From NCBI GenBank assembly GCA_947561715.1, contig OX387201.1, forward strand, positions 15,948,001 to 16,012,000: a stretch of 64,000 nucleotides of DNA, in the 5' to 3' direction. The notes beneath the pieces were generated by a model. That model did no database searches, was not told the origin of the DNA, and saw nothing but the letters and a program-made list of their open reading frames with translations. A program made the position numbers and the translations under genes. The DNA comes from Ascidia mentula (taxonomy: Eukaryota > Chordata > Ascidiacea > Phlebobranchia > Ascidiidae). Positions 19,814-62,352 of this stretch are shown in pieces; the first letter of the stretch is position 1, and each line of letters opens with the position of its first letter.

Positions 19814-22800
19814 TTAAGTACACTTGTCTATTAATTCTTTACAACGCCGCATTTTATAATCCGAAACCTGCCTCCTTTTATACAGATCATAGGCAAGTTC
19901 AAGCTTTGTCAATGCCTCTGGTCGCCTCCCTAACAGCAGTAAACAACGGCCAATCGTGCAATAGCTCTCTGAACGATAGACCAAATCGGTTACGCAAAGT
20001 ACATCCAAACTATTTAGAGAATAGTGAAGCGCCTCCGCGAAGTAGCCAAGTTCAAGGCAGGTTGAGGCAAGCCATAAATTGCACTGACCTATATCGTTTT
20101 GCGAATTATTTCGGTCGAAGTAAGTATATTGGCTCAGTGCATGTTTGAGGAAATGCAACGCGCTGTAGAGTCTATTTAGTTTGTAGTGGCAAAAACCAAG
20201 GGCAAAGTAACAATCGGTTTTATGTTTGTTGCTAAAGCCTTCAGGAGTTTTCCGTTCCACGCTTTTTACTAAAATTTCAAGAAACTTTTGAGCACTATCA
20301 AGAATTTTGCTCTCTATCAGTTCGTTGACTATGGTTGTTAACTTTGCGATGAGTTCATCGTACCTCGAGGTACTCGCTTCGATCCAAATATCAGCAGCTG
20401 TGACAAAACTTTCACAACTCAAGTCATGCTGGTGATTTTTGTAGTAGGAATATCCAAGACCGAAATGGCAAGATGCGATATCTTTCATGTAGGTTTCGTT
20501 GGTAGAACAACGGTTCTTTTTCAACACTTGTAATCGTGCCAAGGCCGAAGCAAAACGTGATATTGCCTGTTCGTTTCTGCAGAGTTCTTGAAAACACTTG
20601 GCTTTGGCTATGTCGCAATTGGCAAGGTTGATTGCATTGAACTGAACAGTTCCCAATCGAATCCCACTCTCAAATTGTTTAAAATGATTTAGAGCTTGTT
20701 TGTATCTTCCGTTTTGAGATAAACGTTTGGCCAACTGAAATTTAAGTTGGCTTTCTGTCTCCAAAGAAGTCGTTCGTTGCAATATTTCTTCAATTATTTC
20801 GATTTCTATTGCTCTGTAATGTCTGTGCTCTGGGTGGCTGGTCTTGGAGGCCTTCCGGAAGACAGCATGGGCAACTGCAAATATTAAAATAAAACTTTTA
20901 AGAAAACAAAATTTTACATGCCTGTAAAAATATCTCTGGATAAAATCCACTGAATGTTTTTCTCTCATTTTCGAGTTCCAACATTTAATGACGTTATTGT
21001 AGCGCTTGCATTACTGCATTGTAGCGAAGCGGATTTATTGCCTTTTTCGTCGAGTTTCTTTGATTTTCGGTTATTGTTTACACGTGGAGTCTTAATTTTG
21101 CAACGCAATAAAGCGGTACAACGCTTATACTTTCATATTGGTCGTAAAAAACACTTGTAAATAACGATTCGTAATTTCGCTGTATCACTGTACACGTGTG
21201 CCCAACTTATTGTAGCGTTTGTTTCGTGCATAAAGGTCAATTAGTACACGATCCCAAACTCCGTTATTGAGCAAATTTTCTGTTAGGTTTGATACCAATA
21301 TTTGAATTGGGCCGAATATTAAAACCTACGTAAACTATTCGGTGTAATTTAAACACTATAAGTTTCTTTCCGCAACATCCCTACTTTACACACGACAAGC
21401 CTACAAATCGTATGACACGAAAGGAGGTTTATCTTTTGATTTAATTTACCTTTGAGCCCAATGCAACAGTTGGGGCGTTTCCTAATCTTCTCGTACACTT
21501 CGCATGCTTCACAATATTTTTCCAAGTTAGCAAAACAAAAAAACAGGGTGTGGAGGCAGAAAAGTTCGTCGTCATCATCGTTATATCTTCTTTTGCCTTT
21601 CAACAAAGCACGACCTTCTGCTATCGCTTTATCATAACACTTTAGCCAATATAATATAGCCAACTTGCTTAACCTTCCAAGTTCAGAACCACCTTCAACA
21701 GCAGTATTGTCACAGGAACGTTTAACCAAGGATTGTAATGTCAAAGCCGTTTCAAAATACCTGACCAGGTTGTCTTGCCCCAACATCTCTACAAGCGAAT
21801 CGCTCACAATATCATACTGGCCTTTGCGTTTTGTGTAAACGCGCAAACGTAATTCGCAAGCCAAAGACAGTGCAAACAAAATGTCCTCCATTAGGGATTG
21901 ATTGATGACGTTATTCTCAAACAATTTGCGCGCTATGTCGAAGGACGACTGTGCGGCCAGTCTGTGGATTCTACCCAGTGAAGCAACAAACAAGCTCGTA
22001 CTTCGGTAGACCAAACGTTTAACATCAAAAAATTCTTTTTGGTGGAAAGAGGGTAAAGTTGTTAAGGGACTGAAATTATTAAAGTCAGCATCCAAACTTG
22101 CTGCAATACGGTCAAGGTCACCAATTAGCGCTTTACTTTTAAGGCCATCTCGGTATAACTCATAAACAGCTTGTGAACCGGACACAAAGCATGTGCTTTC
22201 GAGCACTTCAGCCAATCGATAGCCGTTTTTCAAAGCTTCGTCGTTATCCAAATATTTCAGCATGCGTGACACTGTTTTAATGAGCTCTGTTCTCCAATGT
22301 TTGTTTTCTGTTTCCATTCTTCCCAAAGGAAATTTCGATGCGTGTGGCATCATTCCATCAAAAGATACACCTCTTGGGGTGTTCTCGTCATAAAACCAAT
22401 TATTCTCTTCACATTCCTGGTCGTTTAGGTAAGGTAGCGAAGCACTTGGAATGATGGTTTCTCCAAAGTTGATTACAATCAAATGAAAAATAACTGACAC
22501 CCATCTAAAATACTCCAGTATTTCTTCATAATCATCTCTCTCGTATACATTGTCTTGCAATAGATATGCATGTTCAAAATCAGAATACGGAGTAATCTCA
22601 CTCAAAGCAAGGGATCCCATACCAATAAGTGCATATTCGCATGGACATGGTCCTATAACTGATATACTATAATCCATAATGTCAGACATAAGTGATTTAT
22701 ATTCATATGTTATCAATAATTGCAGTTTTTCCAAACTTTCGGCTCTGGATATAACGGCATTTCCGCCTGAAATATCAAGTTCTTTCAGGCGTGACGATGT

Positions 22801-23154
22801 GTTTTTCCTCATCTGGTCAATAGTTTGCACAAAATGTTGTGATTTTTCAATCAAATTATGTTGATGTATTTTAGCATTTGTAAGTTTCAACGTGAGGCCG
22901 CAAAGGTCGGCAAGACATTGTTCATATACTTCCTCACTTGCTGGATCTCTGACAATGGCTGCATTTAACAATACAGCGCTTCTGATTAAACATATCTTCT
23001 GTTCATGTTTGCAGTCACATTTTTCAGCCAGTATTTTGTACTCTCTGCCCAATCTAAACAAAACATTTGCACACTGCAGTGGATCTTGCTCTCTTCCATG
23101 TTTTCCACACATGGTTCTCAATTCAGCAGAAAATAATTTGATGTCTTCAGACAT
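19814..23154 (-). CDS. NTase-TPR gene, copy A (intact)
   Basis: Two exons: 23154-21450 (donor AAAG|GTAAAT) and 20874-19814 (acceptor TTTGCAG|TTGCCC). Phase 1 join, 921 aa. Residues 1-145 are helical and Cys-containing. Residues 146-205 form a DUF294/GlnD-type nucleotidyltransferase-like core with G180-S181, ten residues, then D192-F-E194 (TPYSDFEHAYLL). Residues 258-335 resemble the matching C-terminal partner region (TPRGVSFDG, FPLGR, TELIK, FVSGSQAVYELY). About seven TPRs follow at 611-644, 653-686, 700-733, 743-776, 787-820, 829-862 and 870-903. No signal peptide or membrane segment, so probably cytosolic. The catalytic pair is D-x-E rather than D-x-D, so activity is unproven. Its 575-bp intron is the longest of the family. 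It carries GF-S extra residues near 780-783 and the MITE directly follows the stop. Confidence 0.92.
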
Positions 23155-23165
23155 TGTTTTTATGA

Positions 23166-25779: not shown

Positions 25780-28700
25780 TTAAGTACATTTATCTATTAA
25801 TTCTTAACAACACCGCATTTTAAAATCCGAAAACTGCATCCTTTTAAACAGATCATAGGCAAGTTCAAGCTTTGTCAGTGCCTCTGGTCGCCTCCCTAAC
25901 AGCAGTAAACAACGGCCAGCCGTGCAATAGCTCTCTGATCGTAATTCCAAATCGGTTACGCAAAGTACCTCCAAACTACTTATAGAATAGTGAAGCGCCT
26001 TCTCGAAGTAGCCAAGTTTAAGGTAGATAAAGGCAAGACATAAATTGCACTGACCTATATCTTTTTGTGAATCATTTCGGTCGAGGTAAGTATATTGGCT
26101 CAGTGCATGTTTGAAGAAATGCAACGCGCTGTAGGGTCTATTTAGTTGGAGGTGAAGAAAACCAAACCAAAAGTAACAATCGGTTTTATGTTTGTTGCAT
26201 TCAGGAGTTTTTCGTTCTAAGATCTTTACTAAAATTTCAAGAAACTTTTGAGCACTATCAAGACTGTTGCTCTCCATCAGTTCGTTAACTATGGTTGTTA
26301 AAGTTGCGATGAGTTCATTGTACCTCGAGATACTCAAATCGATCCAAATATCAGCCGCTGTGACAAAACTTTCACAACTCAAGTCATGCTGGTGATTTTT
26401 GTAGTAGGAATATCCAAGGCCGAAATGCCAAGAGGCGATATCTTTCATGTAGGTTTCGCTTGTAGAACAACGGTTCTTTTTCAACACTTGTAATCTTGCC
26501 AAGGCCGAAGCAAAACATGAAATTGCCTGTTCGTTTGTACAGAGTGCTTGAAAACACTTGGCTTTGCCTATTTCGCACTTGGCAAGGTTGATTGCATTGA
26601 ACTGAACAGTTCCCGTTCGAATCCTACTCTCAAATTGTTTAAAATGATTTAGAGCTTCTTTGTATCTTCCGTTTTGAGATAAACGTTTCTGTCTCCACAA
26701 AAGTCGTTTGTTGCAATATTTTTTCAATTATTTCGATTTCTATTGCTCTGTAATGTCTGTGCTCTGGATGGCTGGTCTTGGAGGCCATCCGGAAGACAGC
26801 ATGGGCAACTGCAAATATTAAAATAAAACTTTTGAGAAAACAAAAATTGTACATGCTTTCAAAAATTTCTCTGGATAAAATCCACTGAATGTTTTTCTCT
26901 CATTTGTGAGTTCCGACATTTAATTAATTTACTACATTGTAGCGAAAAGGATTAATTGACATTTTTGTCGAATTTCTCTTATTTTCGTTTTTTGTTTACT
27001 CGTGGAGTATATCTACGTATACTTCTCGGTGTAATTTAAACACCAGTGTTCAGTCTGCAACATCTCTACTTTACACATGACAAGTCTACAAATCCTATAA
27101 CACGAAAGGAGGTTTATCTTTTGATTTAATTTACCTTCAAGACCAATGCAACAGTTGGGGCGTTTCCTAATCTTCTCTTACACTTCGCATGCTTCACAAT
27201 AAGTTTGCAAAACAATAAAACAAGGTGTGGAGGCAGAAAAGTTCGTCGTCATCATCGTTATATCTTCTTTTGCCTTTCAACAAAGCACGACCTTCTGCTA
27301 TCGCTTTATCATAACATTTTAGCCAATATAATATAGCCAACTTGCTTAACCTTCCAAGTTCAGATTCACCTTTAACAGCAGTATTATCGCAGTAATGTTT
27401 AACCAAGGATTGTGATGTCAAAGCCGTTTCAAAATACCTGACCACGTTGTCTTGCCCCAACATCTCTACAAGCGAATCGCTCACAATATCATACTGGCCT
27501 TTGCGTTTTGTGTAAACGCGCAAACGTAATTCGCACGCCAAAGATAGTGCAAACAAAATGTCCTCCATTAGGGATTGATTGATGACGTTTATCTCAAATA
27601 ATTTGCGCGTTATTTCAAAGGACGACTGTGCGGCCATTCTGTGGATTCTACCCAGTGCAGCAACAAACAAGCTCGTACTTCGGTAGACCAAACGTTTAAC
27701 ATCAAAAAATTCTTTCTGGTGGAAAGAGGGTAAAGATGTTAAGGGACTGAAATTATTAAAGTCAGCATCTAAACTTGCTGCTATACGGTCAAGTTCACCA
27801 ATTATTGCTTTACTTTTAAGGCCATCTCGGTATAACTCACAAACAGCTTGTGAACCAGACACAAAGCATGTGCTTTCGAGCACTTCCGCCAAGCGATAGC
27901 CGTTTTTCAAAGCTTCGTCATTGTCCAAATATTTCAGCATGTGTGACACTGGTTTAATGAGCTCTGTTCTCCAATGTTTGTTTTCTGTTTCCATTCTTCC
28001 CAAAGGAAATTTCGATGCGTGTGGCATCATTCCATCAAAAGATACACCTCTTGGGGTGTTCTCGTCATAAAACCAATTATTCTCTTCACATTTCTGGTCG
28101 TTTAGGTAAGGTAGCGAATGACACTTGGAATGACGGTTTCCCCAAAGTTGATTACAATCAAATGAAAAATAACTGACACCCATCTAAAATACTCCAGTAT
28201 TTCATCATAATCATCTCTTCCGTATACATTGTCTTGTAATAGATACGCATGTTCAAAATCAGAATACGGAGTAATCTCACTCATAGCAAGGGATCCCATA
28301 CCAATAAGTGCATATTCGCATGGACATGATCCTACAACTGATATACTATACTCCATAATGTCAGACATAAGTGATTTGTATTCATACGTTATTAATAATT
28401 GTAGTTTTTCCAAACTTTCGGCTCTGGATCTCACGGCGTTTCCGCCTGAAATCTCAAGTTCTTTCAGGCGTGACGACGTATTTTTCCTCATCTGGTCAAT
28501 AGTTTGCACAAAATGTTGTGATTTTTCAATCAAATTATGTTGATGTACATTAGCATTTTTTCAACGTGAGGCCGCAAAGGTCGGCAAGACATTCTTCATA
28601 TACTTCCTCACTTGCTGGATCTCTGACAACGGCTGCATTTAACAATACTGCGCTTCTGATTAAACATATCTTCTGTTCATGTTTGCAGTCACATTTTTCA

Positions 28701-28828
28701 GCCAGTATTTTGTACTCTCTGCCCAATCTAAACAACACATTTGCACACTGCAGTGGATCTTGCTCTCTTCCATGTTTTCCACACATGGTTCTCAATTCAG
28801 CAGAAAATAATTTGATGTCTTCAGACAT
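25780..28828 (-). pseudogene. NTase-TPR copy B, frameshifted pseudogene
   Basis: Exon 1 spans 28828-27135 (1694 nt, 11 fewer than intact copies) and exon 2 spans 26808-25780 (1029 nt, 26 fewer than C, F and G). Exon 1 carries a 5-bp loss near 28557, a 2-bp gain near 28125 and an 8-bp loss near 27201. Exon 2 carries a 26-bp loss near 26690 and a premature TAA near 25805, where others encode Lys near the C-terminus. Splice sites are kept. The NTase motif (GSLAMSEITPYSDFE) is still readable. The many breaks make a functional protein unlikely. Confidence 0.9.
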
Positions 28829-32166: not shown

Positions 32167-35132
32167 TTAAGTACACTTATCTATTAGTTCTTCACAAAGC
32201 CGCAATCTGTAATCCAAATCCTGCATCCTTTTAAACAGATCATAGGCAAGTTTAAGCATTGTCAATGCCTCTGGTCGCCTCCCTAACAGCAGTAAACAAC
32301 GGCCAGTCGTGCAATAGCTCTCTGACTGATAGTCCAAATCGGTTTCGCAAAGTAAGTCTAAACTATTTAGAGAATAGTGAAGCGCCTCCTCGAAGTAGCC
32401 AAGTTCAAAGCAAGTTGAAGCAAGCCATGAATTGCACTGACCTATATTGTTGTGGGAATAATTTCGGTCGAGGTAAGTATATTGGCTTAGTGCCTGTTTG
32501 AGGAAATGCAACGCGCTGTAAAGTCTGTTTAGTTTGTAGTGAAGAAAACCAAGCCAAAAGTAACAATCGGCTTTATGTTTGTTGCATTCAGGAGTTTTTC
32601 GTTCCAAGCTCTTTACTAAAATTTCAAGAAAGTTTTGAGCACTATCAAGACTGTTGCTCTCTATCAGTTCTTTGAATATAATTCTCAAAGTTGCGATGAG
32701 CTCACCGTACCTCGGGATACTTGCTTCGATACAAATATAAGCAGCTGTGACAAAACTTTCACAACTCAAGTCATGCTGGTGATTTTTGTAGTAGGAATAT
32801 CCAAGGCCGAAATGGCAAGCTGCGATATCTTTCATGTAGGTTTCGCTGGTAGAACAACGGTTCTTTTTCAACACTTGTAATCGTGCCAAGGCCGAAGCAA
32901 AACATGAAATTGCCTGTTCGTTTTTACAGAGTTCTTGAAAACACTTGGCTTTGCCTATTTCGCACTTGGCAAGGCTGAATGCATTGAACTGAGCAGGTCT
33001 CCTTCGAATCCTGATCTCAAATTGTTCAAAATGATTTAAAGCGTCTTTGTATCTTCCGTTTTTAGATAAACGTTTGGCCAACTGATATTTAAGTTGGCTT
33101 TTTCTCTGCAAAGAAGTCGTTTGTTGCAATAATTCTTCAATTATTTCGATTTCTATTGCTCTGTAATGTCTGTGCTCTGGGTGGTTGGTCTTGGAGGCCT
33201 TCCGGAAGACAACATGGGCAACTGCAAATATTGAAAAAAAGTTATATTGAGCACATTTTCTGTCAGATTTGATACCAATATATGAATTTGATCGAATATT
33301 AAAATCTACGTATACTATTCGGTGTAATTTAAACACTAGGGTTCATTCCGCAACATCCCTACTTTACACACGACAAGTCTACAAATCCTATAACACGAAA
33401 GGAGGTTTATCTTTTGATTTAATTTACCTTCAAGCCCAATGCAACAGTTGGGGCGTTTTCTAATCTTCTCGTACACTTCGCATGCTTCACAATATCTTTC
33501 CAAGTTAGCAAAGCAAAAAAACAGGGTGTGGAGGCAAAAGAGTTCGTCGTCATCATCACTATATCTTCTTCTGCCTTTCAACAAAGCACGACCTTCTGCT
33601 ATTGCTTTATCATAACATTTTAGCCAATATAATATAGCCAACTTGCTTAACCTTCCAAGTTCAGAACCACTTTCAAGAGCAGTATTGTCACAGGAACGTT
33701 TAACCAAGGATTGTAATGTCAAAGCCGTTTCAAAATACCTGACCACGTTGTCTTGGCCCAACATCTCTACAAGCGAATCGCTCACAATATCATACTGGCC
33801 TTTGCGTTTTGTGTAAACGCGCAAACGTAATTCGCACGCCAAAGATAATGCAAACAAAATGTCCTCCATTAGGGATTGATTGATGACGTTTATCTCAAAT
33901 AATTTGCGCGTTATTTCAAAGGACGACTGTGCGGCCATTCTGTGGATTCTACCCAGTGCAGCAACAAACAAGCTCGTACTTCGGTAGACCAAACGTTTAA
34001 CATCAAATATTTCTGTTTGGTGGAAAGAGGGTAAAGTTGTCAAGGGATTAAAATTATTAAAGTCAGCATCTAAACTTGCTGCAATACGGTCAAGGTCACC
34101 AATCAGCGCTTTACTTTTAAGGCCATCTCGGTATAACTCATAAACAGCTTGTGAACCGGACACAAAGCATGTGCTTTCGAGCACTTCAGCCAATCGATAG
34201 CCGTTTTTCAAAGCTTCGTCATTATCCAAATATTTCAGCATGTGTGACACTGGTTTAATGAGCTCTGTTCTCCAATGTTTGTTTTCTGTTTCCATTCTTC
34301 CCAAAGGAAATTTCGATGCGTGTGGCATCATTCCATCAAAAGATACACCTCTTGGGGTGTTCTCGTCATAAAACCAATTATTCTCTTCACATTCCTGGTC
34401 GTTTAAGTAAGGTAGCGAAGCACTTGGAATGATGGTTTCTCCAAAGTTGATTACAATCAAATGAAAAATAACTGACACCCATCTAAAATACTCCAGTATT
34501 TCTTCATAATCATCTCTCTCGTATACATTGTCTTGCAATAGATATGCATGTTCAAAATCAGAATACGGAGTAATCTCACTCATAGCAAGGGATCCCATAC
34601 CAATAAGTGCATATTCGCATGGACATGATCCTACAACTGATATACTATACTCCATAATGTCAGACATAAGTGATTTGTATTCATATGTTATTAATAATTG
34701 TAGTTTTTCCAAACTTTCGGCTCTGGATCTCACGGCGTTTCCGCCTGAAATCTCAAGTTCTTTCAGGCGTGACGACGTATTTTTTCTCATCTGGTCAATA
34801 GTTTGCACAAAATGTTGTGATTTTTCAATCAAATTATGTTGATGTACATTGGCATTTGTAAGTTTCAATGCGAGGCCGCAAAGGTCGGCAAGACATTCTT
34901 CATATACTTCCTGACTTGCTGAATCTCTGACAATGGCTGCATTTAACAATACTGCGCTTCTGATTAAACATATCTTCTGTTCATGTTTGCAGTCACATTT
35001 TTCAGCCAGTATTTTGTACTCTCTGCCCAATCTAAACAATACATTTGCACACTGCAGTGGATCTTGCTCTCTTCCATGTTTTCCACACATGGTTCTTAAT
35101 TCAGCAGAAAATAATTTGATGTCTTCAGACAT
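32167..35132 (-). CDS. NTase-TPR gene, copy C (intact)
   Basis: Exons 35132-33428 (1705 nt) and 33221-32167 (1055 nt), 919 aa, intron 206 bp. The domain plan is as in copy A: NTase motif with G-S, ten residues, D-F-E in exon 1, and about seven TPRs in exon 2. Compared with A it has MSEI instead of LSEI in the motif and the shorter ECNKHK joint between TPR4 and TPR5. The intron is of the short class shared with F and G. The CRE-like site upstream is a variant (TGACGACA). It is one of four copies with an open frame. Confidence 0.92.
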
Positions 35133-37329: not shown

Positions 37330-38130
37330 AAATGCGGTTTAAGTTTAAATGCAGGAACAATACTATAGACGACGGCATGGAGACGAAATTAAGAAAGGTG
37401 AAATCGTTCTGTTGAAAAACCCGGTCGTTCCGCCAGGCGAATGCCTGAAGTTCATGAGACCGTGCAGTGCCCTTTCAATGTTATTGAACAACACGGCTTG
37501 GTGAATTGCCTTATCGAAGGAGGAGATGCAAAACAGCTGCGGGTACATTTCAAACGCTTGGAAAATACTAACCTCCCTTTTCATGAAACAGAACGCCGAC
37601 ACACGCTGCCGGTTGAGCTCATGCCACTGACGAACACCGCAAAGCGACACACGCACGAACGCACCCACTGCACCGGATACAGGGTTGCCCACTCGGCCAT
37701 TGTTGGTCAAGGTTTGGACGCCGACACAAATAATACTGCGGCTCTCCTGGTAGTTTCAGTATTTATGCTGCGACGAACACAACTTGTCATGATTAATACG
37801 TTGGCCAAACCAAAAACAAATTTTCAACAAGATGGACACAACACAGATTGGAATTCAACCAAAGGCAAGTTGAGTAACAACGACAAGACGGCTCTGCGCC
37901 ACCATTTTGCAAACGCGCACCCACCGCAGCAACGCGCCTAAGAATATCAAGTTGTTTTTCAGTGGTATTTGTGGAACAGCCTAATGGCCAAAGGACTGGA
38001 TGTGTGCGAAGCCAAATGACTGAACCACACCCAAGTTTCAATAAACATTCAAAAAATGATTCTCCCCCGAATTTGGTACCAGTTGCTGGCAGTTTTGTTT
38101 GGTTTTGTGCTTTGTGAATGGAGTACATTT
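37330..38130 (+). mobile_element. Gypsy-type integrase C-terminal fragment, fossil
   Basis: Reads as the C-terminal part of an LTR-retrotransposon integrase (IKKGEIVLLKNPVVPPGE, then RVHFKRL) followed by non-coding sequence with no repeat partner in the window. It is a truncated remnant, broken, and inserted in the 3' flank of unit D. Confidence 0.6.
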
Positions 38131-38473: not shown

Positions 38474-38696
38474 TTAAGCACATTTGTCTATTAATTCTTT
38501 GCAACGCCGCATTTTATAATCCAAAACCTGCATCCTTTTAAACTGATCATAGGCAATTTCAAGCTTTGTCAATGCCTCTGGTCGCCTCCCTAACTGCAGT
38601 AAACAACGGCCAATCGTGCAATAGCTCTCTGACCGATAGTCCAAATCGGTTTCGCAAAGTACCTCCAAACTATTTAGAGAATAGTGAAGCGCCTCC
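38474..38696 (-). pseudogene. NTase-TPR copy D, 3' fragment only
   Basis: The last 70 or so codons of exon 2 (LCETDLDYRSESYCTIGR to the stop) are intact. Homology stops abruptly near 38696 inside the TPR region. The rest of the gene, its 5' flank and half a type 1 spacer are missing and replaced by about 2.4 kb of unrelated DNA. Confidence 0.92.
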
Positions 38697-39577
38697 GACG
38701 CTAATTCGCTGAATTTCCGGGTTGCCCAAACTGATTTGGGCCTGATAATTTTGGGTCATGTAATATCTGCAGCCGGGTTTAGCAGCTTTTACGCAGTGAA
38801 CAGCATTCTATTAATTATTTTGACACGCATAAGTATTGATGTCGACTGCACACAAACTTTATCTGCAACGCACTCTAAAAAGTAGCAAAACGACAGCAAC
38901 AAACATAACAAATTTGCAGTATATGTTGCAACCCATTCAGCTAATCACTGAATCACCGAAATGAAAAACTAGTGAGTGATTCTATTTCTGCTTCCACGCC
39001 TACTTCTTTTTCACGTAAACGAGCACTGTCGAAATTAGGCGATCCGCTTGACTGCATAACTTTTGGGTGACTGAACAAACCACATTCAGGACCAACTCCC
39101 GCGTCTTACTTTGCACCTGGATTTCCTCGGTCACGATCATAAACAACCATCACCTCACCGATTGGAAATAATTAATAACCAATAGAGTCAATAATGTTTC
39201 AAATGGTAAGCCGTGGAAAGAGCCACTGTTTTCACATAATAGATCTTGCAATTATGTCGTATCACAATCGGAAAAATTATGTTCGATCTTACTAGACTTA
39301 TCACCAAGTCATGTGTGATGATACGATAGTCTAGCCATATCTCCCCCATTGTTATTATCCTAGGGTATGTAAGGAAATGTAACATCGGTCAAAGATAAAT
39401 TGTCGTGCATAAATCATCTCTGATATCATGCTTGTACAATGCCAGAGATCACAGGTATTACCCCTATATCTTTCTTGATCCACGCTCGATTCAGTCACAC
39501 TAAACATGTTAGGCAATCAGTGAAATTTATTCACATACAGTTTTGCGAAACGAAATTATAAATGACTGCAAGTACAC
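38697..39577. other. Unique DNA replacing part of unit D, no gene seen
   Basis: No match to other array units, no clear open frame and no recognised repeat. Together with the next feature it fills the gap between two array breakpoints. Confidence 0.5.
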
Positions 39578-40859
39578 TCAGTCTGAGGCACTTGATGAAG
39601 GACTATCATCAGATGACACATATTTATCTGTACCAGCAGAGGACACAGATGTTGTTGAATCATCAGTGAATGCAGATATTGCTGTATCATCAGTGGATGC
39701 AGATGTTCCTCTGTCATGAGATTGTTCTGTATTATGACTCTTATCAATGTCCCTTGGCCTCTTTCTTATTCTTCCTCCATCACAATCTGCAGCACCTGAC
39801 AGTACTGCCTTGATGTCATTGATGACATCTTGCCCATTAGCCAACTTATGACTTGTAAACTGCAGGCATTCTAAACAAAAACAAAGCAAATAAAATATCA
39901 GCACTGTTGTAGTGAGGTGTTTATTCGAGGTACAAACTGAAGGAATGACACAATGGGCGAATAAACCATGAGGGACGAGAGTAAAAGAAAAAAGGCAATT
40001 TGTCCGGTTCGCTGTAGGAGCGCAAACGTAATAAGAGAGGCCGCTACACTGTCATATTTTCTAAACTTAACATGACCTACGAAGTCAAAAAATTTTTAAG
40101 AAAAATAACAACTTACTACGAAGGACATCATCTAATGAAGAACCACGAAATGTTTTTTTGTAGCTTTTCGTTGGCATCCAAGCCCCGACCAAGAGTATGT
40201 CATGGCGAATGATCTCGTCATGAAGCACCTCATAAATGACCTTACTGTCGAGCGTAACATTCTTCTTTCTATTTTTCTGGCAACAATTTCATAGTCCTGT
40301 GAAGTGAAAAGTCAGCTTGAAACATGTAAGAGCTACTGAACTCCATTTGGATATGAAATTCAAATTTGTATGTTCACACATATGTTGCATATAAAAAACA
40401 AACACAATCTTACTTTAAAGTGATCCAGAATTTCATTAAGTTCTTCGTCAAATGAAGCCGGTTGAAATGTTGGCATTTTAGTTTCTGTTAAAGTTTGTTA
40501 ACAGAAATTTGGACTTTATTTGCTTTTACAATATTCAATATATTTGCAACATCAGTTTTGATCATTTTCATTTCCCAGTGCATGTTACTGAGGTTGGTTG
40601 CATCATCAACTTTGGCTATTTTTTTGGAGCTGGCTGTTGCGGAGTAATAAACATTCTGCAAAGCAAGCACAGCAAACTTTAATTGCAACAAGTGTGAAAA
40701 AATATTTGTAAGCTTTACACCCAAACTCCCTTTTTGGGTAAATAGCATTTTCCCTTAGTAGTGTAGGCATTTTTAAAGTTTTGGGGCTACCATCATCCTC
40801 AGAAGACTCATTGAATTTTTCTGCAGTATATGCCTTTTTTATGCACCGATCATGTGAAT
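39578..40859 (-). CDS. Unrecognised spliced gene or gene remnant inside the array
   Basis: Several minus-strand open stretches have plausible splice sites: acceptor at 40860 (TTATTTAG|ATTCAC), exon 40484-40414 (MPTFQPASFDEELNEILDHF, donor AAA|GTAAGA), exon 40296-40117 and a last exon 39870-39578. The last exon ends in a Ser/Asp/Thr-rich tail after GGRIRKRPRD, a basic NLS-like patch. Exact joins are uncertain. I do not recognise the family; the basic patch and acidic tail would suit a nuclear protein. It is present once, only in the disrupted D region. Confidence 0.35.
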
Positions 40860-42176: not shown

Positions 42177-45100
42177 TTAAGTACATTTATCTATCAATTC
42201 TTTACAACACCGCATTTTATAATCCGAAACCTGCATCCTTTTAAACAGATCATAGGCAAGTTCAAGCTTTGTCAGTGCCTCTCGTCGCCTCCCTAACTGC
42301 AGTAAACAACGGCCAGTCGTGCAATAGCTCTCTGACCGATAGTCCAAATCGGTTTCGCAAAGTAAGTCTAAACTATTTAGAGAATAGTGAAGCGCCTTCT
42401 CGAAGTAGCCAAGTTCAAAGCAGGTTGAAGCAAGCCATGAATTACACTGACCTATATTGTTGTGGGAATAATTTCGGTGGAGGTAAGTGTATTGGCTTAG
42501 TGCCTGTTTGAGGAAATGCAACGCGCTGCAAAGTCTATTTAGTTTGTAGTGGCAAAAACCAAGGGCAAAGTAACAATCGGCTTTATGTTTGTTGCCAAAG
42601 CGAGTTTTCCGTTCCATGCTGTTTATTAAAATTTCAAGAAACTTTTGAGCACTATCAAGACTGTTGCTCTCTATCAGTTCGTTGACTATGGTTGTTAAAG
42701 TTGAGACGAGTTCATCGTACCTCGAGATACCCGCTTCGGTCCAAATATCAGTAGCTGTGACAAAACTTTCACAACTCAAGCCATGCTGGTGATTTTTGTA
42801 GTAGGAATATCCAAGGCCGAAATGGCAAACTGCGATATCTTTCATGTAGGTTTCGCTGGTAGAAGAACGGTTCTTTTTCAACACTTGTAATCGTGCCAAG
42901 GCCGAAGCAAAACATGAAATTGCCTGTTCGTTTTTACAGAGTTCTTGAAAACACTTGGCTTTGGCTATGTCGCAATTGGCAAGGTTGATTGCATTGAACT
43001 GAACAGTTCCCGGTCGAATCCTACTCTCAAATAATTGCTTAAAATGATTAAGAGCGTCTTTGTATCTTCCGTTTTGAGATAAACGTTTGGCCAACTGAAA
43101 TTTAAGTTGGTTTTCTGTCTCCACAGAGGTCGTGTGTTGCAATATTTCTTCAATTATTTCGATTTCTATTGCTCTGTAATATCTGTGCTCTGGGTGGATG
43201 GTCTTGGAGGCCTTCCGGAAGACAACATGGGCAACTGCAAATATTAAAATAAAACTTTTGAGAAAACAAAAATTCTACATGCTTTTAAAAATATCTCTGG
43301 ATAAAATCCACTCAATGTTTTTCTCTCATTTTTGAGTCCCGACATTTAATGACGTCATTGTAGCGCTTACTTTACTACGCGGATTAATTGAACTTTTCGT
43401 CGAAATTCTCTTATTTTCGCTTTTTGTTTACTCGTGGAGTAAATCTACGTATACTTCTCGGTGTAATTTAAACACTACATATGTTCAGTCTGCAACATCC
43501 CTACTTTACACACGACAAGTCTACAAATCGTAAAACACGAAAGGAGGTGTATCTTTTGATTTAATTCACCTTCAAGCTCAATGCAACAGTTGGGGTGTTT
43601 TATAATCTTCTCGTACACTTCGCATGCTTCACAATATCTTTCCAAGTTAGCAAAGCAAAAAAACAGGGTGTGGAGGCAAAAGAGTTCGTCGTCATCATCG
43701 TTGTATCTTCTTTTGCCTTTCAACAAAGCACGACCTTCCGCTATCGCTTTATCATAACACTTTAGCCAATACAATATAGCCAACTTGCTTAACCTTCCAA
43801 GTTCAGAACCACTTTCAAGAGCAGTAATATCACAGTAATGTTTAACCAAGGATTGTTATGTCAAAGCCGTTTCAAAATACCTGACCACGTTGTCTTGCCC
43901 CAACATCTCTACAAGCGAATCGCTCACTATATCATACTGGCCTTTGCGTTTTGTGTAAACGCGCAAACGTAATTCGCACGCCAAAGATAATGCAAACAAA
44001 ATGTCCTCCATTAGGGATTGATTGATGACGTTTATCTCAAATAATTTGCGCGTTATTTCAAAGGACGACTGTGCGGCCAGCCTGTGGATTCTACCCAGTG
44101 CAGCAACAAACAAGCTCGTACTTCGGTAGACCAAACGTTTAACATCAAATATTTCTGTTTGGTGGAAAGAGGGTAAAGTTGTCAAGGGATTAAAATTATT
44201 GAAGTCAGCATCTAAACTTGCTGCAATACGGTCAAGGTCACCAATCAGCGCTTTACTTTTAAGGCCATCTCGGTATAACTCATAAACAGCTTGTGAACCG
44301 GACACAAAGCATGTGCTTTCGAGCACATCAGCCAATCGATAGCCGTTTTTCAAAGCTTCGTCATTATCCAAATATTTCAGCATGTGTGACACTGGTTTAA
44401 TGAGCTCTGTTCTCCAATGTTTGTTTTCTGTTTCCATTCTTCCCAAAGGAAATTTCGATGCGTGTGGCATCATTCCATCAAAAGATACACCTCTTGGGGT
44501 GTTCTCGTCATAAAACCAATTATTCTCTTCACATTTCTGGTCGTTTAGGTAAGGTAGCGCAGCACTTGGAATGATGGTTTCTCCAAAGTTGATTACAATC
44601 AAATGAAAAATAACTGACACCCATCTAAAATACTCCAGTATTTCATCATAATCATCTCTCCCGTATACATTGTCTTGCAATAGATATGCATGTTCAAAAT
44701 CAGAATACGGAGTAATCTCACTCATAGCAAGGGATCCCATACCAATAAGTGCATATTCGCATGGACATGATCCTACAACTGATATACTATACTCCATAAT
44801 GTCAGACATAAGTGATTTGTATTCATATGTTATTAATAATTGTAGTTTTTCCAAACTTTCGGCTCTGGATCTAACGGCGTTTCCGCCTGAAATCTCAAGT
44901 TCTTTCAGGCGTGACGACGTATTTTTCCTCATCTGGTCAATAGTTTGCACAAAATGTTGTGATTTTTCAATCAAATTATGTTCATGTACATTAGCATTTG
45001 TAAGTTTCAACGTGAGGCCGCAAAGGTCGGCAAGACATTCTTCATATACATCCTCACTTGCTGGATCTCTGACAATGGCTGCATTTAACAATACTGCGCT

Positions 45101-45274
45101 TCTGATTAAACATATCTTCTGTTCATGTTTGCAGTCACATTTTTCAGCCAGTATTTTGTACTCTCTGCCCAATCTAAACAATACATTTGCACACTGCAGT
45201 GGATCTTGCTCTCTTCCATGTTTTCCACACATGGTTCTCAATTCAGCAGAAAATAATTTGATGTCTTCAGACAT
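42177..45274 (-). pseudogene. NTase-TPR copy E, one nonsense codon
   Basis: Exons 45274-43570 (1705 nt) and 43234-42177 (1058 nt), intron 335 bp. Both splice sites and the frame are kept through 920 codons except for one TAA at 43858-43856, where other copies have TTA (Leu473). Truncation there would leave the NTase and its partner region without the TPRs. It could be a recent pseudogene, a segregating null allele, a sequencing error, or a gene making a TPR-less product. Exon 2 has one extra residue (FKQLFES) and the RFGNKHK joint. Confidence 0.85.
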
Positions 45275-48060: not shown

Positions 48061-51030
48061 TTAAGCACATTTATCTATTAATTCTTCACAATACCGCAAT
48101 TTATAATCTGAAACCTGCATCTTTTTATACAGATCATAAGCAAGTTCAAACTTTGTCAATGCCTCTGGTCGCCTCCCCAAATGCAGTAAACAACAACCAA
48201 TCGTGCAAAAGCTCTGTGCCCGATATTCCAAATCGGTTACGCAAAGTACCTCCAAACTATTTAGAGAATAGTGAAGCGCCTTCTCGAAGTAGCCAAGTTC
48301 CAAGCAGGTTGAGGCAAGCCATAAATTGCACACACCTATATCGTTTTGCGAATCATTTCGGCCGAGGTAAGTATATTGGCTCAGTGCATGTTTGAGGAAA
48401 TGCAACGCGCTGTAAAGTCTATTTAGTTTGTAGTGAAGAAAACCAAGCCAAAAGTAACAATCGGCTTTATGTTTGTTGCATTCAGGAGTTTTTCGTTCTA
48501 AGATCTTTACTAAAATTCCAAGAAACCTTTGAGCACTATCAAGACTGTTGCTCTCCATCAGTTCGTCCAATATGGTTTCTAAAGTTGAGATGAGTTCATC
48601 GTACCTCGAGATACTCGCTTCGATCCAAATATCAGCAGCTGTGACGAAACTTTCACAACTCAAGTCATGCTGGTGATTTTTGTAGTAGGAATATCCAAGG
48701 CCGAAATGACAAGATGCGATATCTTTCATGTAGGTTTCGCTGGAAGAACAACGGTTCTTTTTCAACACTTGTAATCGTGCCAAGGCCGAGGCAAAACATG
48801 AAATTGCCTGTTCGTTTGTACAGAGTTCTTGAAAACACTTGGCTTTGTTTATTTCGCACTTGGCAAGGTTGATTGCATTGAACTGAACAGCTCCCGTTCG
48901 AATCCTGATCTCAAATTGTTCAAAATGATTTAGAGCTTCTTTGTATCTTCCGTTTTGAGATAAACGTTTGGCCAACTGAAATTTAAGTTGGTTTTCTTTC
49001 TCCAAAGAAGTCGTTTGTTGCAATAATTCTTCAATTATTTCGATTTCTATTGCTTTGTAATGTCTGTGCTCTGGGTGGCTGGTCTTGGAGGCCTTCCGGA
49101 AGACAACATGGGCAACTGCAAATATTGAAAAAAAAGTTATATTGAGCACATTTTCCGTTAGATTTGATACCAATATATGAATTTGATCGAATATTAAAAT
49201 ATACGTAAACTATTCGGTGTAATTTAAACACTACGTATGTTCAGTCTGCAACATCCCTACTCTACACACGACAAGTCTACAAATCCTATGACACGAAAGG
49301 AGGTGTATCTTTTGATGTAATTCACCTTCAAGCCCAATGCAACAGTTGGGGCGTTTCCTAATCTTCTCGTACACTTCGCATGCTTCACAATATCTTTCCA
49401 AGTTTGCAAAACAATAAAACAAGGTGTGGAGGCAGAAAAGTTCGTCGTCATGTTCACTACATGTTCTTCGGCCTTTCAACAAAGCACAACCTTCTGCTAT
49501 TGCTTTATCATAACATTTTAGCCAATATAATATAGCCAACTTGCTTAACCTTCCAAGTTCAGAACCACCTTCAAGAGCAGTATTATCACAGGAACGTTTA
49601 ACCAAGGATTGTAATGTCAAAGCCGTTTCAAAATACCTGACCACGTTGTCTTGCCCCAACATCTCTACAAGCGAATCGCTCACAATATCATACTGGCCTT
49701 TGCGTTTTGTGTAAACGCGCAAACGTAATTCGCACGCCAAAGATAATGCAAACAAAATGTCCTCCATTAGGGATTGATTGATGACGTTTATCTCAAACAA
49801 TTTGCGCGCTATGTCAAAGGACGACTGTGCGGCCAGCCTGTGGATTCTACCCAGTGCAGCAACAAACAAGCTCGTACTTCGGTAGACCAAACGTTTAACA
49901 TCAAATATTTCTGTTTGGTGGAAAGAGGGTAAAGTTGTCAAGGGATTAAAATTATTAATGTCAGCATCTAAACTTGCTGCAATACGGCCAAGGTCACCAA
50001 TCAGCGCTTTACTTTTAAGGCCATCTCGGTATAACTCATAAACAGCTTGTGAACAGGACACAAAGCATGTGCTTTCAAGCACTTCGGCTAATCGATAGCC
50101 GTTTTTCAAAGATTCGTCATTGTCCAAATATTTCAGCATGTGTGACACTGGTTTAATGAGCTCTGTTCTCCAATGTTTGTTTTCTGTTTCCATTCTTCCC
50201 AAGGGAAATTTCGATGCGTGTGGCATCATTCCATCAAAAGATACACCTCTTGGTGTGTTATCGTCAAAAAACCAATTATTCTCTTCACATTTCTGATCGT
50301 TTAGGTAAGGTAGCGAAGCACTTGGAATGATGGTTTCTCCAAAGTTGATTACAGTTAAATGAAAAATAACTGACACCCATCTAAAATACTCCAGTATTTC
50401 TTCATAATCATCTCTCCCGTATACATTGTCTTGCAATAGATATGCATGTTCAAAATCAGAATACGGAGTAATCTCACTCATAGCAAGGGATCCCATACCA
50501 ATAAGTGCATATTCGCATGGACATGATCCTACAACTGATATACTATACTCCATAATGTCAGACATAAGTGATTTGTATTCATACGTTATTAATAATTGTA
50601 GTTTTTCCAAACTTTCGGCTCTGGATCTCACGGCGTTTCCGCCTAAAATCTCAAGTTCTTTCAGGCGTGACGACGTATTTTTCCTCATCTGGTCAATAGT
50701 TTGCACAAAATGTTGTGATTTTTCAATCAAATTATGTTGATGTACATTAGCATTTGTAAGTTTCAACGTGAGGCCGCAAAGGTCGGCAAGACATTCTTCA
50801 TATACTTCCTCACTTGCTGGATCTCTGACAACGGCTGCATTTAACAATACTGCGCTTCTGATTAAACATATCTTCTGTTCATGTTTGCAGTCACATTTTT
50901 CAGCCAGTATTTTGTACTCTCTGCCCAATCTAAACAACACATTTGCACACTGCAGTGGATCTTGCTCTCTTCCATGTTTTCCACACATGGTTCTCAATTC
51001 AGCAGAAAATAATTTGATGTCTTCAGACAT
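48061..51030 (-). CDS. NTase-TPR gene, copy F (intact)
   Basis: Exons 51030-49326 (1705 nt) and 49115-48061 (1055 nt), 919 aa, intron 210 bp. Domain plan as in copy A. Distinctive residues include an acid-poor loop (RRTCSEHDDE, where A has KRRYNDDDDE at about 520-530), the TPR joint ECNKHK, and SCSQAVYELY in place of SGSQAVYELY. Perfect CRE-like site 149 bp upstream. Confidence 0.92.
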
Positions 51031-53761: not shown

Positions 53762-56732
53762 TTAAGCACATTTATCTATTAATTCTTCACAATACCGCAA
53801 TTTATAATCTGAAACCTGCCTCCTTTTATACAGATCATAAGCAAGTTTAAACTTTGTCAATGCCTCTGGTCGCCTCCCCAAATGCAGTAAACAACAACCA
53901 ATCGTGCAAAAGCTCTGTGCCCGATATTCCAAATCGGTTACGCAAAGTACCTCCAAACTATTTAGAGAATAGTGAAGCGCCTTCTCGAAGTAGCCAAGTT
54001 CCAAGCAGGTTGAGGCAAGCCATAAATTGCACACACCTATATCGTTTTGCGAATCATTTCGGCCGAGGTAAGTATATTGGCTCAGTGCATGTTTGAGGAA
54101 ATGCAACGCGCTGTAAAGTCTATTTAGTTTGTAGTGAAGAAAACCAAGCCAAAAGTAACAATCGGCTTTATGTTTGTTGCCAAAGCGAGTTTTCCGTTCT
54201 AAGATCTTTACTAAAATTCCAAGAAACCTTTGAGCACTATCAAGACTGTTGCTCTCTATCAGTTCGTTAACTATGTTTGTTAAAGTTGAGATGAGTTCAT
54301 CGTACCTCGAGATACTCGCTTCGGTCCAAATATAAGCAGCTGTGACGAAACTTTCACAACTCAAGTCATGATGGTGATTTTTGTAGTAGGAATATCCAAG
54401 GCCGAAATGACAAGATGCGATATCTTTCATATAGGTTTCGCTGGTAGAACAACGGTTCTTTTTCAACACTTGTAATCGTGCCAAGGCCGAAGCAAAACAT
54501 GAAATTGCCTGTTCGTTTGTACAGAGTTCTTGAAAACACTTGGCTTTGTTTATTTCGCACTTGGCAAGGTTAAATGCATTGAACTGAACAGTTCCCGTTC
54601 GAATCCTGATCTCAAATTGTTTAAAATGACTTAGAGCTTCTTTGTATCTTCCGTTTTGACATAAAAGTTTGGCCAACTGAAATTTAAGTTGGTTTTCTTT
54701 CTCCAAAGAAGTCGTTTGTTGCAATAATTCTTCAATTATTTCGATTTCTATTGCTCTGTAATGTCTGTGCTCTGGGTGGCTGGTCTTGGAGGCCTTCCGG
54801 AAGACAGCATGGGCAACTGCAAATATTGAAAAAAAATTATATTGAGCACATTTTCTGTTAGATTTGATACCAATATATGAATTTGATCGAATATTTAAAT
54901 CTACGTATATTATTCTGTGTACAATTTAAACACTACATATGTTCAATCTGCAACATCCCTACTTTACACACGACAAGTCTACAAATCCTATGACACGAAA
55001 GGAGGTGTATCTTTTGATGTAATTCACCTTCAAGCCCAATGCAACAGTTGGTGCGTTTCCTAATCTTCTCGTACACTTCGCATGCTTCACAATATCTTTC
55101 CAAGTTTGCAAAGCAATAAAACAGGGTGTGGAGGCAGAAGAGTTCGTCGTCATCTTTACTACATGTTCTTCGGCCTTTCAACAAAGCACGACCTTCTGCT
55201 ATCGCTTTATCATAACATTTTAGCCAATATAATATAGCCAACTTGCTTAACCTTCCAAGTTCAGATCCACCTTCAAGAGCAGTATTATCACAGGAACGTT
55301 TAACCAAGGATTGTAATGTCAAAGCCGTTTCAAAATACCTGACCACGTTGTCTTGCCCCAACATCTCTACAAGCGAATCGCTCACAATATCATACTGGCC
55401 TTTGCGTTTTGTGTAAACTCGCAAACGTAATTCGCACGCCAAAGATAATGCAAACAAAATGTCCTCCATTAGGGATTGATTGATGACGTTTATCTCAAAT
55501 AATTTGCGCGTTATTTCAAAGGACGACTGTGCGGCCAGTCTGTGGATTCTACCCAGTGCAGCAACAAACAAGCTCGTACTTCGGTAGACCAAACGTTTGA
55601 CATCGAAAAATTCTTTTTGGTGGAAAGAGGGTAAAGTTGTCAAGGGATTGAAATTATTAAAGTCAGCATCTAAACTTGCTGCAATACGGTCAAGGTCACC
55701 AATTAGCGCTTTACTTTTAAGGCCATCTCGGTATAACTCATAAACAGCTTGAGAACCAGACACAAAGCATGTGCTTTCGAGCACTTCGGCTAATCGATAG
55801 CCGTTTTTCAAAGCTTCGTCATTGTCCAAATATTTCAGCATGTGTGACACTGGTTTAATGAGCTCTGTTCTCCAATGTTTGCTTTCTGTTTCCATTCTTC
55901 CCAAAGGAAATTTCGATGCGTGTGGCATCATTCCATCAAAAGATACACCTCTTGGGGTGTTCTCGTCATAAAACCAATTATTCTCTTCACATTTCTGGTC
56001 GTTCAGGTAAGGTAGCGCAGCATTTGGAATGATGGTTTCTCTAAAGTTGATTACAATCATATGAAAAATAACTGACACCCATCTAAAATACTCCAGTATT
56101 TCTTCATAATCATCTCTCTCGTATACATTGTCTTGCAATAGATATGCATGTTCAAAATCAGAATACGGAGTAATCTCACTCATAGCAAGGGATCCCATAC
56201 CAATAAGTGCATATTCGCATGGACATGGTCCTACAACTGATATACTATAATCCATAATGTCAGACATAAGTGATTTATATTCATATGTTATCAATAATTG
56301 TAGTTTTTCCAAACTTTCGGCTCTGGATCTCACGGCATTTCCGCCTAAAATCTCAAGTTCGTTCAGGCGTGACGATATATTTTTTCTCATGTGGTCAATG
56401 GTTTGCACAAAATGTTGTGATTTTTCAATCAAATTATGTTGATGTATTTTAGCATTTGTAAGTTTCAACGTGAGGCCGCAAAGGTCGGCAAGACATTCTT
56501 CATATACTTCCTCACTTGCTGGATCTCTGACAATGGCTGCATTTAACAATACAGCGCTTCTGATTAAACATATCTTCTGTTCATGTTTGCAGTCACATTT
56601 TTCAGCCAGTATTTTGTACTCTCTGCCCAATCTAAACAATACATTTGCACACTGCAGTGGATCTTGCTCTCTTCCATGTTTTCCACACATAGTTCTCAAT
56701 TCAGCAGAAAATATTTTGATGTCTTCAGACAT
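53762..56732 (-). CDS. NTase-TPR gene, copy G (intact)
   Basis: Exons 56732-55028 (1705 nt) and 54816-53762 (1055 nt), 919 aa, intron 211 bp. An in-frame ATG at 56741 (MKT before MSED) would add three residues; the shared start is preferred. It is a mosaic. The 5' flank and NTase core resemble A (DYSISV, GPCPCEY), while intron and C-terminus resemble F. The TPR4-5 joint combines the RFG of E with the YFWLGFLH of F. CRE-like site 203 bp upstream. Confidence 0.92.
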
Positions 56733-59248: not shown

Positions 59249-59250
59249 AC

Positions 59251-62200
59251 TTAAGTACACTTGTCTATTAATTCTTTACAACGCCGCATTTTATAATCCG
59301 CAACCTGCCTCCTTTTATACAATAGGCAAGTTCAAGCTTTGTCAATGCCTCTGGTCGCCTCCCTAACAGCAGTAAACAACGGCCAATCGTGCAATAGCTC
59401 TCTGACCGATAGACCAAATCGGTCACGCAAAGTACCTCCAAACTATTTAGAGAATAGTGAAGCGCCTTCTCGAAGTAGCCAAGTTCAAAGCAGGTTGAGG
59501 CAAGCCATAAATTGCACTGACCTATATCGTTTTGCGAATTATTTCGGTCGAAGTAAGTATATTGGCTTAGTGCCTGTTTGAGGAAATGCAACGCGCTGCA
59601 AAGTCTATTTAGTTTGTAGTGGCAAAAACCAAGTGCAAAGTAACAATCGGTTTTATGTTTTTTGCTAAAGCCTTCAGGAGTTTTTTGTTCCACGCTCTTT
59701 ACTAAAATTTCAAGAAACTTTTGAGCACTATCAAGACTGTTGCTCTCTATCAGTTCGTTGACTATGGTTGTTAAAGTTACAACGAGTTCATCGTAACTCG
59801 AGATACTCGCTTCGATCCAAATATCAGCAGCTGTGACAAAACTTTCACAACTCAAGTCATGCTGGTGATTTTTGTAGTAGGAATATCCAAGGCCGAAATG
59901 GCAAACTGCGATATCTTTCATGTAGGTTTCGTTGGTAGAACAACGGTTCTTTTTCAACACTTGTAATCGTGCCAAGGCCGAAGCAAAACATGATATTGCC
60001 TGTTCGTTTCTGCAGAGTTCTTGAAAACACTTGGCTTTGGCTATGTCGCAACAGGCAAGGTTGATTGCATTGAACTGAACAGTTCCCGTTCGAATCCCAC
60101 TCTCAAATTGTTTAAAATGGTTTAGAGCTTCTTTGTATCTTCCGTTTTGAGATAAACGTTTGGCCAACTGAAATTTAAGTTGGCTTTCTGTCTCCAAAGA
60201 AGTCGTTTGTTGCAATAATTCTTCAATTATTTCGATTTCTATTGCTCTGTAATGACTGTGCTCTGGATGGCTGGTCTTGGAGGCCTTCCGGAAGACAGCA
60301 TGGGCAACTGCAAATATTAAAATAAAACTTTTGAGAAAACAAAAATTGTACATGCCTTCAAAAATTTCTCTGGATAAAGTCCATTGAATGTTTTTCTCTC
60401 ATTTTCGAGTCCCAACATTTAATGACGTCATTGTAGCTCTTACTTTACTACATTGTAGCGAAGCGCATTTATTGACCTTTTCGTCGAGTTTCTCTTATTT
60501 CGTTATTTGTTTACTCGTGGAGTAAATCTACGTATACTAGTCGGTGTAATTTAAACACTTTAGGGTTCAGTCCGCAACATCCCTAGTTTACACATGACAA
60601 GTCTGCAAATCGTATAACACGAAAGGAGGTTTATCTTTTGATTTAATTTACCTTCAAGCCCAATGCAACAGTTGGGGCGTTTTCTAATCTTCTCGTACAC
60701 TTCGCATGCTTCACAATATCTTTCCAAGTTAGTAAAACAAAAAAACAGGGTGTGGAGGCAGAAGAGTTTGTCGTCATCATCGTTATATCTTCTTTTGCCT
60801 TTCAACAAAGCACGACCTTCTGCTATCGCTTTATCATAACACTTTAGCCAATATAATATAGCCAACTTGCTTAACCTTCCAAGTTCAGATTCACCTTTAA
60901 GAGCAGTATTATCACAGTAATGTTTAACCAAGGATTGTAATGTCAAAGCCGTTTCAAAATACCTGACCACGTTGTCTTGCCCCAACATCTCTACAAGCGA
61001 ATCGCTCACAATATCATACTGGCCTTTGCGTTTTGTGTAAACGCGCAAACGTAATTCGCACGCCAAAGATAGTGCAAACAAAATGTCCTCCATTAGGGAT
61101 TGATTGATGACGTTTATCTCAAATAATTTGCGCGTTATTTCAAAGGACGACTGTGCGGCCATTCTGTGGATTCTACCCAGTGCAGCAACAAACAAGCTCG
61201 TACTTCGGTAGATCAAACGTTTAACATCAAATATTTCTGTTTGGTGGAACGAGGGTAAAGTTGTTAAGGGACTGAAATTACTAAAGTCAGCATCTAAACT
61301 TACTGCAATACGCTCAAGGTCACCAATCAGCGCTTTACTTTTAAGGCCATCTCGGTATAACTCATAAACAGCTTGTGAACCGGACACAAAGCATGTGCTT
61401 TCGAGCACTTCGGCTAATCGATAGCCGTTTTTCAAAGCTTCGTCATTATCCAAATATTTCAGCATGCGTGACACTGGTTTAATGAGCTCTGTTCTCCAAT
61501 GTTTGCTTTCTGTTTCCATTCTTCCCAAAGGAAATTTCGATGCGTGTGGCATCATTCCATCAAAAGATACACCTCTTGGGGTGTTCTCGTCATAAAACCA
61601 ATTATTCTCTTCACATTTCTGATCGTTTAGGTAAGGTAGCGCAGCACTTGGAATGATGGTTTCTCCAAAGTTGATTACAATCAAATGAAAAATAACTGAC
61701 ACCCATCTAAAATACTCCAGTATTTCTTCATAATCATCTCTCTCGTATACATTGTCTTGTAATAGATATGCATGTTCAAAATCAGAATAAGGAGTAATCT
61801 CACTCATAGCAAGGGATCCCATGCCAATAAGTGCATATTCGCATGGACATGATCCTACAACTGATATACTATAGTCCATAATGTCAGACATGAGTGATTT
61901 GTATTTATATGTTATCAATAATTTCAGTTTTTCCAAACTTTCGGCTCTGGATCTAACGGCGTTTCCACCTGAAATCTCAAGTTCTTTCAGGCGTGATGAC
62001 ATGTTTTTCCTCATCTGGTCAATAGTTTGCACAAAATGTTGTGATTTTTCAATCAAATTATGTTGATGTACATTAGCATTTGTAAGTTTCAACGTGAGGC
62101 CGCAAAGGTCGGCAAGACATTCTTCATATACTTCCTCACTTGCTCGATCTCTGACAATGGCTGCATTTAACAATACTGCGCTTCTGATTAAACATATCTT

Positions 62201-62352
62201 CTGTTCATGTTTTCACATTTTTTAGCCAGTATTTTGTACTCTCTGCCCAATCTACACAATACATTTGCACACTGCAGTGGATCTTGCTCTCTTCCATGTT
62301 TTCCACACATGGTTCTCAATTCAGCAGAAAATAATTTTATGTCTTCAGACAT
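59251..62352 (-). pseudogene. NTase-TPR copy H, two 4-bp deletions
   Basis: Exon 1 is 62352-60652 (1701 nt, four short) and exon 2 is 60307-59251 (1057 nt, four fewer than A). The loss in exon 1 near 62214 removes part of the CDCKHE codons and shifts the frame after about 45 residues. The loss near 59320 removes GATC and replaces the last 24 or so residues with an unrelated tail stopping at 59268. Everything between is open, including the NTase motif and TPRs. An internal start could give an N-truncated protein of about 880 residues, but a pseudogene is simpler. Confidence 0.88.

Follow-up and report, generated by a model that had tools for sequence, protein, structure and literature searches.

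A tandem and genome-wide gene family of Ascidia mentula joining a predicted DUF294-type nucleotidyltransferase head to a TPR tail

The window, i.e., the whole 64,000-nucleotide stretch of Ascidia mentula DNA that was analyzed, carries on its minus strand, between positions 19814 and 62352, seven near-complete copies of a two-exon gene plus one fragment (c1 to c8). The copies were located by tblastn with the two exons of c6 joined as the query, corresponding to a spliced reference protein of 919 residues. Exon 1 encodes a helical N-terminus, a nucleotidyltransferase (NTase) core of the form GS-x10-D-x-E, and a partner region, and exon 2 encodes about seven tetratricopeptide repeats (TPRs); the product of an intact gene comprises about 920 residues. 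The number of copies and the two-exon structure had been predicted from the sequence, and tblastn, a repeat finder, and shared splice signals all confirmed them. Specifically, the repeat finder reported seven to eight copies at a spacing of 5.4 to 6.4 kb, the regularity being interrupted around fragment c4 (between 36000 and 42000), and all seven near-complete copies have in common the context of the start codon (ATG), the donor A-G^GT, and the acceptor TTTGCAG^TT. The introns measure 206 to 575 bases. Chance is excluded as an explanation of the repeated two-exon structure. The motif G-S-x10-D-x-E, likewise part of the original prediction, is present as GSLAMSEITPYSDFE.

Both exons are intact in four copies, namely, c1 (exon 1, positions 21450 to 23154, with the N-terminal helical region, NTase core, and partner region; exon 2, 19814 to 20874, with about seven TPRs), c3 (33428 to 35132 and 32167 to 33221), the reference copy c6 (49326 to 51030 and 48061 to 49115), and c7 (55028 to 56732 and 53762 to 54816). 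The other three near-complete copies are broken. Copy c2 is disrupted by several frame changes and a stop: its exon 1 (27135 to 28828) is matched by tblastn in several frames, and its exon 2 (25780 to 26808) contains a frame change and the stop. In c5, exon 1 (43570 to 45274) has a single stop at codon 473, and exon 2 (42177 to 43234) is open. Two frame changes affect c8, one near codon 48 of exon 1 (60652 to 62352) and one close to the end of exon 2 (59254 to 60307). Fragment c4 (38477 to 38734), detected by both tblastn and the repeat finder, covers the last TPRs of exon 2 and is 67% identical to c6. The window copies are mosaics: the sequence upstream of the genes is of one type in c1 and c7 (95.3% identity) and of a second type in c2, c3, c5, c6, and c8 (94 to 97%), and the closest exon 2 pairs, c6/c7 and c1/c8, cross this grouping.

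The surroundings of the cluster contain retroelement remains and a receptor exon. Broken retroelement pieces lie on the minus strand at 6478 to 8448, with a reverse transcriptase (PF00078, 6478 to 7017) and an aspartyl protease (PF13650, 7313 to 8023); the frame at 7906 to 8448 (minus strand) gave no Pfam match. On the plus strand, 17299 to 18447 encodes a retroelement RNase H (PF17917, PF17919) and a Tf2-1-like SH3 piece that scores under the cut-off. A rhodopsin-family receptor exon is located on the minus strand at 9328 to 11389, with 7tm_1 in 9328 to 9930; the minus-strand frame at 10865 to 11389 had no Pfam match and by eye resembles part of an LDL-receptor class A module. The frames at 37402 to 37941 and 39578 to 40051, near fragment c4, were likewise without a Pfam match.

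The window represents one cluster of a larger, genome-wide family. A search with PF03445 that covered the 195.8-Mb assembly (79 contigs), in which the window occupies positions 15948001 to 16012000 of contig C69, identified at least 93 further places over the 21-bit cut-off, none of them in the window. The open frames around these places have at least 800 aa in 59 cases, 450 to 799 aa in 22, and fewer in 12. With a limit of 50 kb, the places form 43 groups, the largest of which comprises 19 places on contig C72. Together with the window's seven copies, the family thus has at least 100 members, broken ones included, and the true number is probably higher, given that only the best candidates were scored and that the window itself was missed. 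Twenty of the 93 loci were taken for study; in a tree, the rows of two of them, L028 and L029, lie on long branches. As a separate observation on the assembly, contig C79 (19461 bases, which we take to be long for an ascidian mitochondrial genome) bears a COX1 stretch with 18 AGA/AGG codons, 16 of them in the matched part, which are read as glycine according to the ascidian code and thus mark the host as an ascidian. Reading them as serine would break well-known COX1 stretches, where the glycines at these positions are presumably conserved.

The head of the protein was compared with domain profiles using window frames, seven full paralogs, and a 22-row alignment (A1) consisting of three window copies and 19 paralogs, the latter chosen by a pattern requiring GS, TP, and SD. 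With PF03445 (cut-off, 21 bits), three window exon 1 frames scored 19.7 to 20.7 bits (c3, 20.7), a 420-aa region of c3 scored 21.6 bits, and the seven full paralogs scored 30 to 47.5 bits; all 22 rows of A1 matched at an E value of 0.01 or better. In the stop-to-stop exon 1 frame of c6, DUF294 at residues 140 to 219 is followed by DUF294_C at residues 362 to 483, both just under their cut-offs. PF10335 (cut-off, 22.5 bits) reached 19.5 to 22.1 bits in the window (c3 exon 1, 20.9; the highest value is that of a window row of A1) and matched 7 of the 22 rows at an E value of 0.01, and NTP_transf_2 matched a single row. The DUF294-type domain of the original prediction therefore holds for PF03445, near the threshold in the window and clearly in the paralogs, and PF10335, named alongside it, stays under its cut-off in the window. 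These scores support the assignment of the window family to DUF294; as the wider family lies clearly over the cut-off, the paralogs can be taken to settle the question. Searches of three proteins against PHROGs returned no match, and PADLOC yielded weak matches only.

Invariant over the 22 rows (numbering of the first row) are GS, E97, TP, SD-x-E, E143-T144, W164, D167, D177, and K185; of these, only GS, TP, and SD had been required by the row-selection pattern. In the twentieth locus, L016, the ET and DG pairs are retained along with GS, SD-x-E, and the lysine, and TPYSD reads TPQSD. Each of the 20 paralog loci, like two proteins of the chlamydia Neochlamydia described below, keeps the GS, the D-x-E, the glutamate of (G)ET, and the aspartate of (F/P)DG. 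The signature of the Pol-beta superfamily, i.e., G-S...D-x-D/E plus a third acid, is accordingly present in every one of the 20 loci examined; candidates for the third acid are the glutamate of (G)ET and the aspartate of DG, both of which are invariant. The position of the second metal ligand is occupied by glutamate, not aspartate. A structure model of exon 1 built with six window rows had a pLDDT of 32.7, which is too low for a fold call. From the profiles, we infer that the head is a Pol-beta-superfamily NTase of the DUF294/DrrA/GlnD-GlnE group with a helical partner region.

The prediction of about seven TPRs in exon 2 was substantiated by matches to the Pfam profile TPR_12 (E values of 3e-16 in the c3 and 9e-16 in the c6 exon 2 frame) and by seven registers placed by eye. 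The model of c6 exon 2 is helical throughout, with a mean pLDDT of 69, and is confident only in its C-terminal half, where blocks of 10 residues reach 73 to 94 from residue 221 onwards. Among the seven full paralogs, L015, L017, L027, and L029 passed a TPR cut-off, L010 and L012 remained below it, and no match was shown for L022 in the TPR profile scan.

Head and tail differ in the selection acting on them. Maximum-likelihood estimates of omega, obtained from five copies with codon models that include the broken c5 and assume no recombination, were 0.306 for exon 1, where omega of 1 was rejected (2dlnL, 47.2), and 0.995 for exon 2, where it was not (2dlnL, 0.001; with seven copies, 0.04). The pN/pS values from counting in five copies were 0.31 for the N-terminus, 0.30 for the NTase region, and 0.27 for the partner region, compared with 0.77 for the TPR exon, both in seven copies and in the same five. 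The head is thus under purifying selection, whereas the tail evolves at an approximately neutral rate, which could reflect relaxed constraint. At the positions that we take to line the TPR groove (2, 5, 9, 12, 13, 33, and 34), pN was 0.133, compared with 0.068 for the remaining non-core positions (permutation P, 0.001), and random sets of seven positions reached this excess in 0.3% of cases. In the register control, the true register ranked second of 34, one scoring higher. The ratio of the groove value to pooled pS was 1.33 with a 95% interval of 0.87 to 1.95, which includes 1; positive selection on the groove as a proven result was therefore dropped, and the excess of nonsynonymous change there is suggestive.

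Homogenization of the heads was evident among ten paralogs, drawn from the 20 loci, whose frames exceed 800 aa. Tracts of 40 codons in which 90% or more of the third positions agree occurred in the heads of 7 of the 45 pairs and in the tails of none, the seven pairs falling in only two clades, both outside the window copies. For L015 and L017, which lie about 0.8 Mb apart, pS was 0.079 in the NTase region versus 0.68 in the tail, and between L010 and L011 identity drops from 84% in the NTase region to 26% in the tail, the alignment of the latter being itself uncertain. Protein constraint does not account for agreement at third positions, so this contrast probably arose through conversion between head sequences or through tail exchange.

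Relatives outside animals were sought in several collections. A tblastn search with L017 against 72,556 plasmid records found one record, pS13 of Neochlamydia sp. S13, with matches at 11 places (E value, 7e-25). Two full pS13 proteins carry many TPRs in addition to an F-box and a DUF294 domain (35.5 and 32.6 bits), and window exon 1 is 25% identical to one Neochlamydia protein over 464 aa that include the N-terminal helical region. When 13 tunicate and the two chlamydial rows were aligned, the same acidic residues were found in both, at a tunicate-chlamydial identity of just 23 to 28%. An F-box was absent from the Pfam matches of five window frames and of the seven paralogs. In the plasmid stretch L030 (1 to 10880), three tetratricopeptide genes lie in a row, and in the protein encoded at 7023 to 10877 the DUF294 and TPR parts are preceded by an F-box and by a stretch that looks OTU-like by eye. 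Pattern scans confirmed no relative in prokaryotic genome contigs or viral contigs and gave none in phages; the Neochlamydia F-box–DUF294–TPR proteins are the closest bacterial relatives among those found. They are of the NEX2 type set out in PMC4209131, which describes an expanded family of 50 proteins with an F-box, sometimes an OTU domain, DUF294, and C-terminal TPRs. The link suggests an exchange of the module between chlamydiae and eukaryotes, in either direction; the single long open frame of many tunicate members would fit a bacterial source and also retroposition.

The closest solved structure was that of DrrA (6yx5), with whole-sequence E values of 0.0012 for A1 and 1.4e-4 for A2, i.e., the family profile with two Neochlamydia rows added. 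A1 aligned with DrrA both in the core and in the helical partner region, each of these two stretches being weak by itself (E values, 2.5 and 5), and the sole PDB match of L017 as a single sequence (E value, 0.07) was irrelevant. SidM_N, the N-terminal domain of DrrA, matched 11 of the 22 A1 rows (best E value, 4.7e-8). Among the seven full paralogs, L017 exceeded its cut-off of 27 bits (29.4 bits), L010, L015, and L022 scored under it, and no match was listed for L012, L027, and L029; in three window exon 1 frames, SidM_N was absent at an E value of 1. The catalytic residues of DrrA are given in part of PMC7815794 as G98-S99-L100, D110, D112, and D150. In the window family, with exon 1 numbered from its ATG (D192, E194, E232, D266), E232 follows E194 by 38 residues, the same spacing as from D112 to D150. 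E232 may thus be the counterpart of D150, with D266, placed near the third acid of GlnE by a weak alignment, as the alternative candidate. The matches to E. coli GlnD and GlnE were weak (E values of 0.0045 and 0.023; probability under 8%), and the full-length GlnD model scored at best 19 bits against a cut-off of 799, in L017, and gave nothing for a window copy. The closest characterized enzyme found is the AMPylase DrrA rather than the PII uridylyltransferase of the original prediction, and PII uridylylation was dropped as the function.

Taken together, we favor, as a tentative reading, a protein nucleotidyltransferase whose head is under catalytic constraint and whose fast-changing TPR arm serves in targeting, plausibly in defense. 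The head would use an NTP to attach a nucleoside monophosphate to a target protein, picked by the TPR groove, in the way that DrrA puts AMP on Rab1. FICD, an unrelated AMPylase, likewise uses TPRs for its target (PMC8065156). We infer that the head is catalytic, that its donor is ATP and its acceptor a protein and not a small molecule, and that the family acts inside the cell in defense or recognition. The expansion, the homogenization of heads, the fast evolution of tails, and the presence of broken copies are in keeping with recognition or defense families, and the assumption of such a role is helped by the head-tail contrast in selection together with the homogenized heads.

A conserved head and a variable tail would also fit a receptor with a cGAS-like head that produces a soluble nucleotide as a signal, or that modifies RNA or a small molecule, and with a tail that senses a switching ligand. 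By their GS...D-x-D/E core, cGAS-like receptors belong to the same superfamily. In animals, they form an immune family of NTase receptors (PMC9980059). However, cGAS/OAS-type families gave no Pfam match at an E value of 0.01 in the seven full paralogs or the 22 A1 rows, and DrrA, the best-matched characterized enzyme, modifies a protein; we regard signal production as unlikely. To the same degree, we doubt a nonimmune expansion of a housekeeping or developmental family by drift, tandem duplication, and gene conversion with relaxed tails. A tail omega of 0.995, not above 1, and the three broken copies among seven speak for it, but frames of at least 800 aa are kept at 59 of the 93 places, and nonsynonymous change is concentrated on the presumed groove positions (P, 0.001), albeit with a register control that is not clean. 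Least probable is a set of pseudo-enzyme adaptors, in which the fold of the head is maintained to bind partners and the genes function as TPR scaffolds: glutamate in place of aspartate at the second metal ligand, the long branches of L028 and L029, and the same three of seven broken window copies agree with it, but the head is under purifying selection and its acids are kept in 20 of 20 paralog loci and two Neochlamydia proteins despite 23 to 28% identity.

If the head is indeed a protein nucleotidyltransferase, animals would possess a Pol-beta-type family of such enzymes beside FicD and SelO, and the module would be common to an animal family and to amoeba-dwelling chlamydiae. In a review on metazoan AMPylation (PMC8097203), FicD and SelO are the enzymes attributed to animals; with a conserved DrrA-like head present in about 100 gene copies of a chordate, there would be a third class, one whose targeting is inherently varied. 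A more far-reaching proposal, which we consider rather doubtful, is an undescribed intracellular recognition system of animals, in which a fixed head of the AMPylase/UMPylase type, kept uniform by gene conversion, would be combined, across about a hundred gene copies, with many different readers made of TPRs or of TPR-like repeats. To our knowledge, tunicates lack adaptive receptors of the vertebrate type. A constant head joined to a variable tail is a known design of recognition families, which makes the family a testable candidate for tunicate recognition. Among the matches listed in a literature search, with most subscription journals and bioRxiv outside its scope, there was no description of the family or of a DUF294 gene family in animals.

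Several known systems resemble the family in part. The antiviral TPR proteins IFIT1/IFIT1B, presumably without an NTase head, share with it homogenized 5′ and diverging 3′ ends, a likeness by description. For IFIT1/IFIT1B, recurrent gene conversion of the 5′ ends and divergence of the 3′ ends are reported in PMC4887208. E. coli GlnD and GlnE share the core motif, GlnD matching over 28 columns only and GlnE weakly over 130 columns; a single table row in PMC3710099 groups DUF294_C, the partner domain of GlnD/GlnE, and DrrA. The Legionella Rab1 AMPylase DrrA/SidM has in common with the family the GSL...D-x-D core, SidM_N, and a weakly aligned partner domain, whereas it has GEF and lipid-binding domains (PMC7815794) where the family has the TPR tail. 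According to a passage in PMC4454073, DrrA-like proteins are very rare and limited to gammaproteobacteria, specifically to strains of Legionella pneumophila. The NEX2 proteins of Neochlamydia differ in being bacterial, in the F-box in front, and in their much stronger TPR scores, but they are homologous in sequence and have the same order of N-terminal helical region, NTase core, partner region, and TPRs, and in both Neochlamydia and the ascidian the family is expanded.
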